A stretch of DNA of 35,264 nucleotides, from the IMG/VR virus record IMGVR_UViG_3300005541_000059, positions 1 through 35,264 of that record; one strand, written 5' to 3'. The notes under the pieces were generated by a model, which saw only the letters and a program-made list of their open reading frames with translations, was not told where the DNA came from and did not search any database. Positions 13,990 to 35,264 of this stretch are shown in pieces; the stretch's first letter is position 1; each line of letters begins with the position of its first letter. The DNA comes from a virus. Both the position numbers and the translations under genes were made by a program.

Positions 13990-15699
13990 ATGCCTACAAA
14001 TCTAGCTAACGGAATAGAACTTGGAGATCCTGGCAACGGCTTCTATGAAGACTATCTCAGAGAAAGAAATATTAAACCACATCCAGTTCAGGAACAGCTT
14101 TTAACTCTTCCAGATGAAATCTTTGAAGCCCTATATGGAGGAGCTGCTTATGGAGGAAAGAGTTGGATTCTTACGTTGCTCCCGCTATTTCGTGGATTCT
14201 ACAAATTTAGGGGTTATAAAGGAATTATACTTAGAAACAAATTCCCAGACTTGGAAAGAGAGATAATACGTCTTTCTAAAGAATATTATCCAAAAACTGG
14301 AGCAAAGTATAATGAACAAAAACATAGCTGGGAATGGCCAGAGTACAACTCATATCAGGATTTCGGACACGTTCAGCATAGTAGTGATATTGCTATGTAT
14401 GATTCTAGCCAATATAACTATTGTTCTTTCGATGAGCTCACGCATTTTTCTGCTTATCCATATCATTATATGGTTGGTTCTCGTGTTCGTCCTTCGTCAT
14501 CATTTAACATTGCAATCGTCAGAAACGGTTCGAATCCCGGAGGAGTAGGCCAAACATTTGTTTATGATAGATTCGTTAAGCCATTCGAAGATGGTAATAG
14601 AATCATTCGTGACAAGTCTACAGGTCTTCTACGGATATTCATTCCAGCTAAAGCTGAAGATAATCCTTATGGAATGGAATACGATCCGTTATATGTTAAG
14701 AAACTCGAGATCCTTAAGACAGTCTCCGAAGCAGAATATAGAGCAAAAAGATTTGGCGACTGGCATGCATTTAAAGGCTCCGTTTTTACTACATTCAGAC
14801 CACTTAGATTTCCAGGTGAGCCAGATAACGCACTGCATGTTATTAAACGATTTCAAATACCTGAATGGTGGCCAAGAGTACTGTCAATTGACTGGGGAAA
14901 ACGGGCAATGTGCCATGCAATGTGGATTGCAATTTCTCCAAATCATAGAGCTTATATCTACAGAGAACGAGCTTGGTATAACAAGGACATAAGTCAATGG
15001 GCTAATGAGATTAGAGAACTTGTATATGAGAATAGTGAAACAATTCTTCAGACCACACTTTGTGGGAGTGCTTGGCAGAGTCGAGGTGGAGAATTGATTT
15101 GTGATGAGTTCCAGCGTTATTCTAGATTGGTTCCTTCTTCATCGGAGAACTCTCCTGGTTCCAGGGTGGCTGGATTGCAATTAATACATGACTATTTGAG
15201 GTGGGAGAAAGTTGCTTCATTAAAGTCAAAAGGTGAGTTCTATGATATGCAATTAGCTCAGGGAATATATAGGAAATACGGGCCGGTCGCACTGGAGGCA
15301 TATAAGAAACAATTCTATGATGAACCAGAAGAAGATAATCTTCCAGTTCTACAAATCTTCGAAGAGTGCAAAGTTTTAATTGATACAATTCCAATGGCCG
15401 TTTATGCCGAGGATAAACCGGGCCGTCCTGCGGAGGATATTGCTGAATTTGAAGGAGATGATCCTATTGATAACTTGAGATATGCCTGCAAGACTATTAA
15501 ACGATATTTAGCCGGTGAGATTTCCGGTTTGGACTTAGCGGCCAAGAAACAACTAGTAATGACTGATTATGGAGTAGATAATGATACAACTAGAATGTAT
15601 AGAAGACTAGAAGCAATTGAGATGCATGACCATCATACTCTTCAGGATTGTATTCCTGTTAGCCGTCGAAGTAGATTTGCAAGGAGGATGGTGCATTAA
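13990..15699 (+). CDS. terL: terminase large subunit
   Basis: 569 residues. The N-terminal ATPase has Walker A GGAAYGGKS (50-58) and Walker B YCSFDEL with D148/E149. RNGSNPGGVG (178-187) follows as in other large terminases. The C-terminal nuclease has LSIDWG (D301) and DPIDNLRYA (D494) as metal-binding acids. The enzyme pumps DNA into the prohead through the portal and cuts the concatemer. The length is normal. The ATG follows the previous stop by 12 bases, and its stop overlaps the next start as TAATG. Confidence 0.95.
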   Translation: MPTNLANGIELGDPGNGFYEDYLRERNIKPHPVQEQLLTLPDEIFEALYGGAAYGGKSWILTLLPLFRGFYKFRGYKGIILRNKFPDLEREIIRLSKEYYPKTGAKYNEQKHSWEWPEYNSYQDFGHVQHSSDIAMYDSSQYNYCSFDELTHFSAYPYHYMVGSRVRPSSSFNIAIVRNGSNPGGVGQTFVYDRFVKPFEDGNRIIRDKSTGLLRIFIPAKAEDNPYGMEYDPLYVKKLEILKTVSEAEYRAKRFGDWHAFKGSVFTTFRPLRFPGEPDNALHVIKRFQIPEWWPRVLSIDWGKRAMCHAMWIAISPNHRAYIYRERAWYNKDISQWANEIRELVYENSETILQTTLCGSAWQSRGGELICDEFQRYSRLVPSSSENSPGSRVAGLQLIHDYLRWEKVASLKSKGEFYDMQLAQGIYRKYGPVALEAYKKQFYDEPEEDNLPVLQIFEECKVLIDTIPMAVYAEDKPGRPAEDIAEFEGDDPIDNLRYACKTIKRYLAGEISGLDLAAKKQLVMTDYGVDNDTTRMYRRLEAIEMHDHHTLQDCIPVSRRSRFARRMVH

Positions 15700-20844: not shown

Positions 20845-22098
20845 ATGCCAGGACAAGTAGTTGAATCTGTAGTTGCCGGAACAGAGCTGGAACGTGTGTT
20901 GCCGAAAGTGACTACGGTCTTTGAAAGCGATGACACCTTTTTTGGAAATATTAAAAAAAGAGATGTAGAAGTAGTTAGCTATAGAGAGATGCGAGCACCT
21001 ATGGAACTAAGACCAGGTGGTCGTTTTCAATATTTTAATCCCGATGGTGGAGATATGGGCCGCGGTGGTGGTCCTACTTGGGATAAAGCCGTTCTGCGTC
21101 CTGTATTTCTATCAGAGAATATTGAATATACTAAACTAACTCAGTGGTCTACAGATGACCGTAGAAAGTCTGTTATCAACGCAGTCCGTCGTTTGACTGC
21201 GGGAGCTACTGTCGAAATTAAAAGACAGCTAGATGCTCAACTACAAGGTACTGGAACCGGCCAAGTAGGAACTATTACTACTCAGACTACTACTGCTGGA
21301 GTAGATACGTATGTTATGGATGCCGAATTTGGTGCACGGCTAGTAAGATACGATCAAGTAGTGCAGGTTTATGATACTACTTTGGCTACATTTAGAGGAA
21401 AGGGTGTTGTAACGCTATGGGACGTTGAAGCAAAGACTATTAACGTCACTCCAGCAATTACAGGCTCTACAAATACAGATGTATTAGTTGTAGATGGATT
21501 GACTAATCCTACTGCACTCCCTGGATTGTATGGTGTTCCATATCATCATAGTAATGCTAGTACAGGCACTTGGTTGGGTTATGATAGAGCTACAACTCCT
21601 GAAATTCGAGCTAATCGAGTTAATGGAAACGCTAGTGCTCTAACACTGCCACTTCCAAGACTAGCAATCAATAAGATTGGTAATAGAGTTGGTATTGATA
21701 ATAACTTTGATCCTCAGGCTTGGACACATCCTTGTCAAGCTCAGGCTTATGAAGAGATTGGACAGCTAATTTCGATTATCCATAAAGCACCTAAAGATGA
21801 ATCTTTGAATTTGTATTTTGGTGATAACATGCAGCTTGCTGGTGCTCCAATCCGGCAGCATTTTAATTGGTCTAAGAAACGTATTGATTTTATTGTTAGC
21901 TCTGTTTGGGGCCGCGCTGAGATATTGCCTATTGGATTCTATACGAGTGATGGCCGTCGCATCTTTGAACTTCGTGGTAGTTCAGGAGGCGTTGCGGCTG
22001 CTGATATTTTCTATATGGTCGTGGGATTTCAGACCTTCGTGCTCAATCCCGCAGCTTGTGCATATATCGATAATTTGGCTATTCCTTCTGGATACTAA
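20845..22098 (+). CDS. major capsid protein
   Basis: 417 residues. It begins with a helical N-arm and then FGNIKKRDVEVVSYREMRAP and the Gly-rich FNPDGGDMGRGGGPTWDKAV, an E-loop-like part. The long C-terminal half has strands and the helix DPQAWTHPCQAQAYEEIGQL as in HK97-fold coat proteins of short-tailed phages. Its position after the scaffold and before a decoration gene is decisive. It should be the most abundant virion protein. The ATG is ten bases after the scaffold stop. Confidence 0.85.
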   Translation: MPGQVVESVVAGTELERVLPKVTTVFESDDTFFGNIKKRDVEVVSYREMRAPMELRPGGRFQYFNPDGGDMGRGGGPTWDKAVLRPVFLSENIEYTKLTQWSTDDRRKSVINAVRRLTAGATVEIKRQLDAQLQGTGTGQVGTITTQTTTAGVDTYVMDAEFGARLVRYDQVVQVYDTTLATFRGKGVVTLWDVEAKTINVTPAITGSTNTDVLVVDGLTNPTALPGLYGVPYHHSNASTGTWLGYDRATTPEIRANRVNGNASALTLPLPRLAINKIGNRVGIDNNFDPQAWTHPCQAQAYEEIGQLISIIHKAPKDESLNLYFGDNMQLAGAPIRQHFNWSKKRIDFIVSSVWGRAEILPIGFYTSDGRRIFELRGSSGGVAAADIFYMVVGFQTFVLNPAACAYIDNLAIPSGY

Positions 22099-22490: not shown

Positions 22491-23237
22491 ATGAAACAAA
22501 AAAAGATTTTAGTGGGCTTGTCAACTGGTGAACACATTCGTAGGGCTGAGTTTCTGCCATCATTCATAGGCTTGATGCGGCCAGAGAATTGTTTTACAGC
22601 AACAGTTCATGGTCAATCACCTGCTAAATCAAGAAATCTGCTAATAGATAGAGCTATAGAAAATGATTGTACACACATCCTATTGCTCGACGATGATATG
22701 ATTCCTCCGTCAGATACATTGATAAAACTAGTTGAGCACAATAAAGATGTCGTGTCGGCATTATATCTTTTGAGATCATTTCCACATAGACCTGCACTTT
22801 TCGATAAAGCATACGAAAACGGCAAGTGTAAATTCATGTCTCTCACTCCTGAACTTTCAGGACTAGTCGAAGGAGTGAATTGCGGATTAGGCTGTGTTTT
22901 AATTGCAACTAGAGTGTTTGAGAAGATGGAAAGACCTTATGTAAGATTGGGAGAATTAGAACAGGATGAGTGGTGTGATGATGTAGGATTCTTCAACCGA
23001 GTTAAGAAAGCAGGTTTTAAGGTATTTTGTGACCTTGATTGTCCAGTTGGACATATGACTAATTTAACTATTTGGCCGGAAAAAGTTAACGGTGTATGGT
23101 TAACGAATTACAAACATCCTGATGGTAATATTCATATTGCACAGAATATATTAACTGATGCACAGATTAAAGAACAAGAAGAAAAGAATGACGCTTTATC
23201 ATTAAAATCACGCAAACATTCTCTGTCTCACGTTTAG
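22491..23237 (+). CDS. GT-A fold glycosyltransferase (family 2-like)
   Basis: 248 residues. An N-terminal Rossmann-like strand (KILVGLSTGEH), then THILLLDDDMIPP with the DxD metal/nucleotide-sugar motif at D67-D69, and a later EWCDDVGFFNRVKKAGFKVFCDLDCPVGH. This is the usual acceptor-side DD and His of GT-A transferases that act on sugar-nucleotides. It has no membrane segment. Sitting between head genes, it may glycosylate virion proteins or, less likely, modify host surface sugar. No good ribosome site precedes the ATG; a hairpin does. Confidence 0.82.
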   Translation: MKQKKILVGLSTGEHIRRAEFLPSFIGLMRPENCFTATVHGQSPAKSRNLLIDRAIENDCTHILLLDDDMIPPSDTLIKLVEHNKDVVSALYLLRSFPHRPALFDKAYENGKCKFMSLTPELSGLVEGVNCGLGCVLIATRVFEKMERPYVRLGELEQDEWCDDVGFFNRVKKAGFKVFCDLDCPVGHMTNLTIWPEKVNGVWLTNYKHPDGNIHIAQNILTDAQIKEQEEKNDALSLKSRKHSLSHV

Positions 23238-31850: not shown

Positions 31851-32474
31851 ATGGCTACAAACTACGATCTTCTCAAATCAAGTAGTCCGGGTGAGGGTAT
31901 TGCTCCACAAATGATATCATCTAATCCAAATGAAGGTGTTGCTCCTATTTCTCCGAGTTCTAATATGATTTCATCCAGTCCTATTAGTTCTCTTCCTACT
32001 GGTTTAGGAAGTCCTGGTGGTGGTAGTTATAATGCTTATGCAGGTGGAGGAGCTTCTGGTGTAGTACCTGGAGGTGGATCTATTGCCTCTCTAAATAATA
32101 GTAGTCCAGCTACTAACCCTAATGGTGGTGGAATGGGTGCTGGTTCTTATGTGAATGGGGTACTACCGCCTAGTAATAATACAACTAATAGTTCTCCTAA
32201 TAATTACTCTCAAATGATCACATCGAGTCCTAATATGACTCTCCCAACTAATACACTTGGATCAAGTATGATTACTAATAATGCCACTCCGAATTTAGCA
32301 TCTCCTATTTCTGGAACTACTAATGTTGCAGCTCCTACAGGTTCTACTCCAAGTACGATGAATACTCAGCCTTCTAATATTATGAATCCTGCAATGCAAG
32401 GTAGTATGAATCAGCCGTCTCTAAATTCATTAGGAAGTAGAAATAAGCTTTCTACGTTTGGAGCACTACAGTAA
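31851..32474 (+). CDS. disordered Ser/Asn/Pro/Gly-rich protein
   Basis: 207 residues, nearly free of charged residues, with repeated SSP/NSSPN motifs (SSSPGEG, SSNPNEG, SSSPISS, NNSSPATN, TSSPNM) and Gly patches. It should be unfolded in solution. Position between the tail and the internal protein genes suggests a virion-injected or linker protein. Both neighbours are coupled (three-base gap; TAATG). No family recognised. Confidence 0.66.
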   Translation: MATNYDLLKSSSPGEGIAPQMISSNPNEGVAPISPSSNMISSSPISSLPTGLGSPGGGSYNAYAGGGASGVVPGGGSIASLNNSSPATNPNGGGMGAGSYVNGVLPPSNNTTNSSPNNYSQMITSSPNMTLPTNTLGSSMITNNATPNLASPISGTTNVAAPTGSTPSTMNTQPSNIMNPAMQGSMNQPSLNSLGSRNKLSTFGALQ

Positions 32475-33529
32475 TGCCATTTAGTGCAATGGGTAGAATG
32501 CCATTTGCTAATACTAATACGACTGCATCTGGTCCTATTTCAACATTTGGTGATCCATTGAATTTTAATGCAGCCGCTAATACACAAGCTAGTGATTATG
32601 ATACAATAATGGCAAATTATAATAATATTATAAAAGCAAATCAGAATAACCCAATCACGTCTACGAATGTAACTCCACAGACCTCAGCGGCTCCAGCGAA
32701 TGTAACTGCACAAACTGTTACTCCACAAACTATAAATGCACAGAATGTAACTGCACAAAAATCTGGTTATCAGCAATCTGGTGATGTAACTCAATCTCTA
32801 GCTGATTTATCAAATCTAGCACGAACTGGTGGATACACAGCTCAAGGAATTGCTGATATTAGAGCTAGAGATATTTCTCCTACTAGATCTATTTATGCTA
32901 ATGCTCAACAGAATGTGGATAGGGCTAGGGCATTAGGTGGCGGCTATTCACCGAATGCTAATGCTACACAAGCTCAAATGGCTAGAGATGAATCTAGCCA
33001 GATTAGTGATATCGGAGTTAATGCAAATGCTGGAATCGCACAAAATGTAGCTGCAAATGAATTAGCCGCAAGTGGGGCTTATGGAAGTGCTGCTGGAGCT
33101 GCAAATGCACAACAAGCCCAAGCTGGAGAATTTGACGCTAATGCAGTAAATCAAGCTGGTGAGTTTAATGCTGCTAATGCTTTGACAGCTAGTACAGGTA
33201 ATGCTGCTAACGCATTAACGGCTAGTGCTGATAATGCTGCCAATGCCCTAGCGGCTAGTACTGGTAATGCAAATAGAGATACGCAAAACAATCAATTCAA
33301 TGCAAATAATGCTAACACTGCTAATACTGCCAATGCTGATAGATCTTTATTGGCTCAATTTAATAATAGAAATAGTACTATAGGGGCTATACAGGGACAA
33401 GCTAATTTATACGGTACTACACCAGCACTTACGAATACATTTGGTAATCAAGTCATGCAAGCACAAAGTTCTGGACAAAACCAGCAAAATATAGATAATG
33501 CCCAACGCAGAGCTCTCTTCGGGTATTGA
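32474..33529 (+). CDS. internal virion (ejection) protein, Ala/Asn-rich
   Basis: 351 residues. A disordered Asn/Thr/Gln start is followed by ISPTRSIYANAQQNVDRARA-like helical sequence and GGGYSPNANATQAQMARDES, a pattern I associate with podovirus internal proteins, and a long Ala/Asn-rich helix. Residues 232-264 are three 11-residue repeats (NAANALTASTG, NAANALTASAD, NAANALAASTG), a hendecad coiled-coil pattern. Such proteins are packed inside the head and ejected to form a channel through the envelope. TAATG start. Confidence 0.7.
   Translation: MPFSAMGRMPFANTNTTASGPISTFGDPLNFNAAANTQASDYDTIMANYNNIIKANQNNPITSTNVTPQTSAAPANVTAQTVTPQTINAQNVTAQKSGYQQSGDVTQSLADLSNLARTGGYTAQGIADIRARDISPTRSIYANAQQNVDRARALGGGYSPNANATQAQMARDESSQISDIGVNANAGIAQNVAANELAASGAYGSAAGAANAQQAQAGEFDANAVNQAGEFNAANALTASTGNAANALTASADNAANALAASTGNANRDTQNNQFNANNANTANTANADRSLLAQFNNRNSTIGAIQGQANLYGTTPALTNTFGNQVMQAQSSGQNQQNIDNAQRRALFGY
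33167..33265 (+). repeat. 33-bp tandem repeats, three copies, inside the ejection protein gene
   Basis: Three in-frame 33 bp units encode the 11-residue repeats of the Ala/Asn-rich helix. They differ at a few bases, so the copies are old or under drift. Copy number may vary between related phages. Confidence 0.6.
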
Positions 33530-33531
33530 TT

Positions 33532-34473
33532 ATGCCAACTTTTATGGATTCTCTAACGGCTAACCCTTCTGGTAGCGGTGGAATATATAATAGCCAAAAG
33601 CCTCCTGATCAAGCTAATGAGTTAGCTATTGTAAATCAATTAAAAGATAGAGAGATGCGAGATTTTAAAGATAAAGCTGGCTTTATGGCCGATTTGAGCC
33701 TAAAGCAAGAACGATTACGAGCAATGTATGATCCTACTGCTCTGCATCAGCAAGATGCACAAAATCCTAATCAACAACAGGGGCCACAAGTTAGCCAAGT
33801 TAGAGATCCTAATGCTATGAATGCTAATCAAAAAGGTGAATTGGATATTAAACAGCAGGGATTGAATTTAGATAAACAAAAGTTAGACCAACAGAAACAG
33901 CTTGGTCAAGAAGCTCAAGATACAAAGAGTGCTCAAGAAAAGTTAAATCAGCAGAAGAGTGATCAGATTCATGCTCAGAAAATAGCTGAATTAGAAGCTA
34001 AACAAGCAGAATCAAAAAATAAGCTAGATTTAGCTCATCAAGCACTAACAGATAAGAATACCAATCTCCAGAATCAACTAGAACTTCATGATACCATAGC
34101 TAAGAATACAAAGGCATATCATGATGCTGAAATGTCTAAAAAAGATCTAGTTTTTGCACAATCTCAGAAAGCTCATCAAGACTTGATGGATGCAATGCAG
34201 AAGAAGCTTGATGCCGCTAATAAGACTACAACAACGACATTAAATCCTGATGGAACTAGCAAGACTGTTAAAACAACTACTGGTTCTGATGCTGGCACAG
34301 TTCAAGTTAAAGGGAAGGACGGTAAAACATATGAAATACCTGCTAATAAGCAAGATGAATGGAATCAGCAACATGCTCCAGATAAAACTCCGCCAGCAGC
34401 ATTAGCTGGGCCGCAAGCTGGTCAGGATAGTTCCGATGACGAAGAGAATGATTCTAGTGAGAATGGACGATAA
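33532..34473 (+). CDS. coiled-coil internal virion protein
   Basis: 313 residues from ATG 33532 (a TTG at 33526 gives a TTGA overlap with the gene upstream and is the alternative). After a polar start, residues about 95-230 are a long Gln/Lys/Leu/Ala coiled coil (LDKQKLDQQKQLGQEAQDTK and on). The last 80 residues are Thr/Lys/Asp-rich and disordered. Long helical proteins next to the Ala/Asn-rich protein are typical of the internal core. TAATG overlap with the deoxyhypusine-synthase-like gene. Confidence 0.68.
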   Translation: MPTFMDSLTANPSGSGGIYNSQKPPDQANELAIVNQLKDREMRDFKDKAGFMADLSLKQERLRAMYDPTALHQQDAQNPNQQQGPQVSQVRDPNAMNANQKGELDIKQQGLNLDKQKLDQQKQLGQEAQDTKSAQEKLNQQKSDQIHAQKIAELEAKQAESKNKLDLAHQALTDKNTNLQNQLELHDTIAKNTKAYHDAEMSKKDLVFAQSQKAHQDLMDAMQKKLDAANKTTTTTLNPDGTSKTVKTTTGSDAGTVQVKGKDGKTYEIPANKQDEWNQQHAPDKTPPAALAGPQAGQDSSDDEENDSSENGR

Positions 34474-35264
34474 TGCTACCGCGTGAAATCAAGCAGCCAA
34501 TAGAAGTTAAATTATCTGGAAATACGTCTAAATTCATTCGACGGAATTATCATCATTTTAATGCACTAGTATTAAAAAATGCCACAATGGCATATAAGAA
34601 GCTATTAGATGATAACGGTAAAATGTTCGTATCTATGGCCGGCGCTATGTCTACTGGAAGACTAGGAATTTCATTAGCCGCTATGATTCGAAAAGGATAT
34701 GTTTCCGGGCTTAGTGTCACAGGGGCAAATCTAGAAGAAGATGTTTTTAATCTAGTGGCAAATAAAGAATATGTTCACATCCCAGATTACAGAGACATTA
34801 CTCCGGAAGATAATAAGGAGATGTTAGATCAGAAATTGAATAGAGTAACTGATGTGGCTATTCCTGCTAGTTCAATGAAGGAAGTTGAAGACGTTATTAT
34901 TGAAGCATGGAAGAGTTCTGAAGATAGGAAATTCCCACATGAGTTTCTTTATGAAATTCTTCTAGCTGGAAAGCTTAAGAAATACTATCAAATTGATGAA
35001 GCTGAAAGTTGGCTACTTGCAGCGGCCGAAAAAGACATTCCAATCGTAACTCCAGGTTGGGAAGACTCAACTCTAGGCAATGTTTTTACTGCTCTCGTAC
35101 GTAAACAGGAAGTTGATTTATCAGTACTGAAGAATGGCATCGAAGCCATGAATTATCTAGCTGATTGGTACTTAAAAACTAAAGAGAATAAAGGATTTTT
35201 TCAAATCGGAGGTGGAATTGCTGGAGATTTTAGTATTTGTGTAGTTCCTTTTTTGAAACAAGAT
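34473..35264 (+). CDS. deoxyhypusine synthase-family protein (cut by right edge)
   Basis: 264 codons, open to the window end; the family is usually 310-350 residues. It shows many DHS-family blocks: GAMSTGRLGISLAAMIRKG (57-75), SVTGANLEEDVFNLVA (81-96), IPDYRDITPE (103-112), LNRVTDVAIP (122-131), FPHEF (154-158), TPGWEDSTLGN (193-203) and GFFQIGGGIAGDFSICVVP (241-259). This is the bacterial branch. Eukaryotic enzymes move an aminobutyl group from spermidine to eIF5A using NAD; bacterial relatives act in polyamine synthesis. The catalytic lysine (in a WGK motif) would lie past the edge. It is coupled to the internal protein gene by TAATG. Family sure; substrate unknown. Confidence 0.9.
   Translation, partial: MLPREIKQPIEVKLSGNTSKFIRRNYHHFNALVLKNATMAYKKLLDDNGKMFVSMAGAMSTGRLGISLAAMIRKGYVSGLSVTGANLEEDVFNLVANKEYVHIPDYRDITPEDNKEMLDQKLNRVTDVAIPASSMKEVEDVIIEAWKSSEDRKFPHEFLYEILLAGKLKKYYQIDEAESWLLAAAEKDIPIVTPGWEDSTLGNVFTALVRKQEVDLSVLKNGIEAMNYLADWYLKTKENKGFFQIGGGIAGDFSICVVPFLKQD

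Follow-up and report, generated by a model that had tools for sequence, protein, structure and literature searches.

A deoxyhypusine synthase-family gene in a phage virion module, a candidate polyamine synthase gene of a subfamily distinct from SpeY

Two homologues of deoxyhypusine synthase (DHS) have been described as polyamine synthases. SpeY, of Anabaena and other cyanobacteria (NF001980/PRK00770), produces homospermidine from putrescine (PMC9992855, PMC10407285), and CdmS of Thermus thermophilus, the bis-guanidino-aza-nonane/caldomycin synthase (NF002699), couples agmatine with agmatine and yields diguanidino-homospermidine (PMC10981699). Phage-encoded polyamine synthesis as such is known: SpeD with its ADC/ODC derivatives, SpeE and HSS are viral genes for polyamine supply, and the 2023 PNAS survey of these enzymes found by BLASTP no SpeY/DHS homologue in viruses or phages (PMC9992855).

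The window, that is the whole 35,264-nucleotide stretch of viral DNA analysed here (IMG/VR record IMGVR_UViG_3300005541_000059), ends with a plus-strand gene (34473-35264) that is open up to the contig edge, where its 3' part is cut off after 264 of ~330 codons. A sequence-only reading of this DNA had assigned the 264-aa product to the DHS family, and the assignment is confirmed, as the partial protein matches PF01916 (deoxyhypusine synthase) with E 2.4e-28 and a score of 99.7 bits, where the cut-off is 27, far beyond chance. The contig also encodes phage hallmarks, a terminase and a major head protein, and the synteny around the gene is kept in ten related contigs. No DHS-like relative was found by tblastn in 50,697 phage records with the window protein and a large-phage homologue as queries, the BFVD viral fold library gave no match at E<=0.001, and we found no report of a viral DHS or SpeY in the open-licence literature, a scope that leaves subscription papers aside. 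Within this scope the occurrence of the DHS family in phages and its position in a virion operon are new, and the contigs would supply a third viral polyamine route, that of the DHS/SpeY family, recurring in several phage groups. The viral HSS is non-homologous to the window enzyme, although the outcome, homospermidine, may be the same.

Relatives beyond the contig edge

Close relatives of the window protein are encoded in seven viral contigs (67-86% identity), and a profile search brought in more (50 loci); pattern-based scans of the collections recover only part of them. The window's own group, hereafter group A, consists of ten contigs (L001-L007, L094, L095 and L098), whose DHS proteins are 330-337 aa long, uninterrupted and with normal ends, and from L001, which is 86% identical, we infer that the window gene ends as they do. 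The earlier reading had proposed to look for the catalytic lysine past the edge, where its site lies, and had named a premature stop or the loss of this lysine as the danger. Neither was found: a WxK motif (ITWDK) is kept in the related phage contigs (62-86% identical), its lysine, K302, corresponding to human K329, and none of the full-length relatives examined lacks it. Across nine phage DHS genes dN/dS was 0.05-0.15 wherever dS could be estimated, with synonymous sites near saturation, and by this measure the group A DHS genes are under strong purifying selection.

As the contig end cuts the window gene, one may ask whether it is an assembly chimera, host contamination or a captured gene in decay. 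We regard this as hardly credible, for the identical arrangement is found in a further ten contigs, which come from several metagenomes, and the low dN/dS speaks against both a chimera and decay. In a careful tree, moreover, the window protein falls within a clade of 17 sequences (96/98), all of them viral and representing several unrelated groups of phages, and the host-DNA chimera that a tree might have uncovered finds no support; two long-branch viral sequences of unsure position, L117 and L134, were left out of this tree. For the group, the shared arrangement, the intact reading frames and the low dN/dS together rule out a chimera or a pseudogene.

A subfamily apart from SpeY and CdmS

Bacterial and phage members share the signature E-K-I-[TS]-W-x-K. 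Against the NCBIfam models the scores were low: 113, 101 and 123 bits for SpeY (NF001980, cut-off 450), 69, 76 and 79 bits for CdmS (NF002699, cut-off 500) and 92-105 bits for the DHS models (cut-offs 304-364). In a tree that had eight cyanobacterial SpeY, one planctomycete SpeY and another DHS-like protein as references, the proteins of the phage type and their relatives in bacteria formed one clade (100/99), apart from SpeY, on a branch of ~4.8 changes per column. Aquisphaera insulae (L037/L137) carries a true SpeY (569 bits) together with a phage-type paralogue, and Sorangium cellulosum (L059/L136) the phage type together with another DHS-like paralogue, which suggests that the two DHS-family genes of these bacteria have different jobs. 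Based on the low NCBIfam scores, the separate clade and the paralogue pairs, we conclude that by sequence the window protein belongs to a DHS subfamily distinct from SpeY and CdmS and widespread among many bacterial phyla. The earlier reading had claimed neither this separate subfamily nor its recurrence in several unrelated phage groups. The subfamily thereby exposed, with its EKITW signature, lies outside every NCBIfam equivalog model, and we know of no member that has been assayed.

An AlphaFold2 model of the full-length L001 protein (pLDDT 93, pTM 0.92) has as its best PDB matches only DHS structures, 8put, 7cmc (Pyrococcus) and human 1dhs, with TM 0.70-0.77. A profile alignment to human DHS, for which the roles of the human residues were taken from PMC10981699, PMC7226451 and general knowledge of DHS, pairs W300 with W327, E296 with E323 and D198 with D238 besides the catalytic lysine, and the GGG and EED blocks match as well; W300, K302, E296, D198, GGG246-248 and E88/E89 are invariant in 56 full-length homologues. 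Four of the aligned regions are encoded within the window, all on the plus strand. G57-A-M-S-T61 (34641-34655) aligns with the human T-S-N-L-I-S block of the NAD site, G57, A58 and S60 being invariant in the 56, and E88-E89-D90 (34734-34742) is the human EED block, also of the NAD site. D198 lies in G195-W-E-D198-S-T-L-G-N203 (35055-35081), and G246-G-G-I-A-G-D252-F (35208-35231) stands where the human enzyme has GGG-VVK-H288, with the histidine replaced and D252 invariant in the subfamily.

The residues that hold spermidine in the human enzyme are substituted, D243 by N203, D316 by Y289 and the H288 region by G-D252-F, the position of H288 being approximate on account of an alignment gap. An extra lysine, K297, stands invariant beside the catalytic block, and the pocket residues Y289, N203, D252 and K297 are unique to the subfamily. 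The NAD- and substrate-binding blocks that had been read from the sequence are borne out in part: the motifs on the NAD side are retained, as is the W/K/E catalytic block, whereas the human spermidine-binding residues are replaced. Sequence and model alike point to an intact-looking, predicted enzyme.

With SpeY the subfamily shares the Pfam family, the fold, the W-x-K block, the equivalents of E323 and D238, the glycine block of the NAD site and a polyamine gene neighbourhood, but it has GGGIAGDF for GGGSPKNF, EKITW for EAVSW and GYSGA for GLSGA, and the window-type gene is phage-encoded, in a separate clade and at 101-123 bits. CdmS has the catalytic lysine and glutamate in common with it and is likewise without human Asp243 and Asp316 (PMC10981699), the substitutes being F/L in CdmS and N/Y in the window type. 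Human and archaeal DHS (1DHS, 7CMC, 8PUT) are alike in fold, NAD site and catalytic block, but their identity is 15-22%, the spermidine pocket residues are replaced and these phages show no eIF5A target of their own; an eIF5A-like gene (PF21485) was found in none of 34 viral records, with archaeal controls positive. As the equivalents of D243, D316 and H288 are replaced and the viral records show no eIF5A gene, protein hypusination by the window-type enzyme appears unlikely.

Position among virion genes

The genes that precede the DHS gene make up one same-strand late module, which includes the terminase large subunit (13990-15699, plus strand; phrog_979, E 2.3e-27), matched by 464 phage records at <60% identity in tblastn, and the major head protein (20845-22098, plus strand; phrog_14242, E 6.7e-8). 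A TIG-domain protein and a weak SU10-adaptor-like protein are also encoded upstream on this strand, and with these four genes ahead of it the DHS gene stands last in the virion module, as far as the window extends. In the same head/tail module, just past the major head protein region, there is a glycosyltransferase-like gene (22491-23237; phrog_1574, phrog_12406). The window holds no tRNA genes, and a search for the host by terminase, across 199 genomes from the same phylum as L010 (an Acidobacteria MAG), gave weak, distant matches only.

Closer to the DHS gene and in the same operon is a plus-strand ORF for an Ala/Asn-rich repetitive protein (32474-33529), conserved in group A, which contains a 33-bp tandem repeat (33166-33270) of NAANALTASTG-type units. 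It is followed on the same strand by a Gln/Lys-rich ORF (33526-34473), for which Pfam and PHROGs gave no match and whose product is probably a coiled-coil protein of the virion module. A homologue of this gene directly precedes the DHS gene in all group A contigs, overlapping it by 1, 4 or ~32 bases (the last in L098). In the window its stop TAA (34471-34473) shares one base with the DHS start ATG (34473-34475), and the TAATG so formed (34471-34475, plus strand), with overlap or near-overlap in the ten related contigs too, upholds the translational coupling proposed earlier; a promoter scan of the DHS region gave no signal above that of shuffled sequences. On its other side the group A DHS gene is followed by a gene for a ~1,000-1,400-aa protein, mostly with an overlap or a gap of <=2 bases (108 in L004). 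In L001 (8993-12472) and its group A homologues the N-terminal part of this protein is proline-rich and variable and the C-terminal part conserved, and the downstream ~1,160-aa protein had no credible Pfam or PHROGs match. The description of the flanking genes as encoding internal virion proteins is plausible, but Pfam and PHROGs give them no such name.

Similar positions recur elsewhere. Within the virus-only clade the DHS-like gene of L097 lies near a major head protein gene, a neighbourhood repeated in L111 and L131, that of L120 adjoins virion structural proteins, and that of L093 is preceded by a gene resembling phrog_2534, annotated as 'released from the phage upon host infection' (E 1e-10). 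Outside this clade, the DHS-like gene comes after a tail protein gene in L134 and before one for a virion structural protein (phrog_14478) in L096. The three phages L097, L111 and L131 also carry a Radical-SAM/QueE-like gene (L097, 3533-4738).

This position leads one to expect late expression, and it bears on two other proposals for the enzyme. According to one, the enzyme would modify a phage virion protein in a hypusine-like manner, by transferring an aminobutyl-type group onto one of its lysines, and this would explain the place of the DHS gene between virion genes; consistent with it, the two genes to which the DHS gene is coupled are the same throughout ten related contigs, and DHS-like genes also occur in the virion modules of further phage groups. 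We nevertheless think it unlikely, given that the 34 viral records hold no eIF5A-like gene, that D243, D316 and H288 are substituted, and that many viral and cellular relatives adjoin polyamine genes, away from virion genes. According to the other, the enzyme would itself be part of the virion, be ejected along with the DNA and act early instead of late, and the conserved ~1,000-1,400-aa protein directly after it in group A, the phrog_2534-like gene of L093 and the structural protein of L096 could be read in this way. This proposal appears less probable still, as the protein carries no packaging signal or added domain, its length being that of the bare DHS fold, and the large-phage relatives lie outside recognised virion modules.

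Polyamine gene neighbours and the predicted reaction

A SpeA-type arginine decarboxylase and/or a SpeB-type agmatinase is encoded within 4 kb of the cellular relatives at eleven loci (L012, L021, L028, L029, L031, L032, L039, L043, L045, L048 and L056), and a SpeD homologue lies within 4 kb at three others (L023, L027 and L080). SpeD is also carried by 10 of the 39 viral contigs with a DHS-like gene, namely L119 and nine contigs of a group that includes large phages, some of them with terminase and/or gp23. The window-group phages were found to have no SpeA-type decarboxylase, SpeB or SpeD, and the host must therefore supply the diamine; a PLP decarboxylase (PF02784) was present in none of the 39 viral records.

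Based on the linkage to SpeA, SpeB and SpeD, and on the known DHS homologues that use putrescine or agmatine, we propose that the window enzyme couples two diamines and so makes a polyamine, homospermidine or its diguanidino form, late and together with the virion proteins, a reading to which we give a probability of about 0.6. The gene would encode a catalytically competent enzyme of the distinct bacterial and phage subfamily. Bound NAD+ would oxidise a diamine, putrescine or agmatine, and the aminobutyl (or guanidinobutyl) group would be kept as an imine on K302, handed to the amine of a second diamine and reduced by NADH, giving homospermidine or a diguanidino precursor. As it is cotranslated with virion genes the enzyme would be made late, and the long polyamine would rise in the cell during genome packaging and the translation of virion proteins. 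Substrate, product, timing and benefit are thus what we infer from sequence and gene context. Among the jobs listed earlier for the enzyme a homospermidine-type polyamine is the best supported, by the relatives that adjoin SpeA, SpeB and SpeD, and protein modification is disfavoured by the altered pocket and by the lack of an eIF5A gene in the viral records. The product may serve to neutralise packaged DNA, another of the jobs listed earlier, or may act in late translation.

Against the coupling of two diamines stand the scores below the curated SpeY (113 versus 450 bits) and CdmS (69 versus 500 bits) cut-offs, the subfamily's own pocket residues, and the phage-type paralogue of Aquisphaera insulae, which may do something else than the true SpeY beside it. 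The same coexistence, the long branch from SpeY (~4.8 changes per column, 100/99) and the invariant K297 with Y289, N203 and D252 near the predicted substrate site could point to a different amine pair, for instance one with an amino acid or with an amine peculiar to phage or host, in place of the homospermidine route. We take this to be a real though clearly lesser possibility, as several phyla, and large phages too, repeat the adjacency to SpeA, SpeB and SpeD.

With the constant position of the DHS gene among virion genes, an old question can be put to the test, namely whether phages produce polyamines of their own for the particular purpose of packaging or late translation. A more tentative, indeed doubtful, extension is that an ancient phage-owned DHS lineage, represented by the virus-only clade over several groups, has been kept in the virion module either because a homospermidine-type product of the unusual pocket is dedicated to assembly or packaging, or because the enzyme travels in the particle.

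In six viral contigs SpeD lies within ~3 kb of the DHS-like gene, and in L132 only ~40 bp away; the spans of the pair are 1735-3145 in L132, 5832-8978 in L109, 6433-8975 in L108, 5546-8266 in L106, 4729-8978 in L102 and 5832-8978 in L110. It is possible that the two genes of the large phages form a two-gene viral polyamine module. The large-phage SpeD has the motif HSFEE, without the usual proline, where the bacterial relatives have HTFPA, and according to PMC10407285 it is a proline hereabouts that distinguishes true AdoMet decarboxylase from its arginine decarboxylase derivatives. By that criterion the large-phage SpeD homologues may, in our own estimate from the motif, be arginine or ornithine decarboxylases. 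Two putative viral contigs, L101 and L119, had no gp23 or Terminase_6N match; in both, a gene for a SpeB-like ureohydrolase lies directly beside the DHS-like gene, overlapping it in L101 (7186-8984; 1334-3417 in L119).
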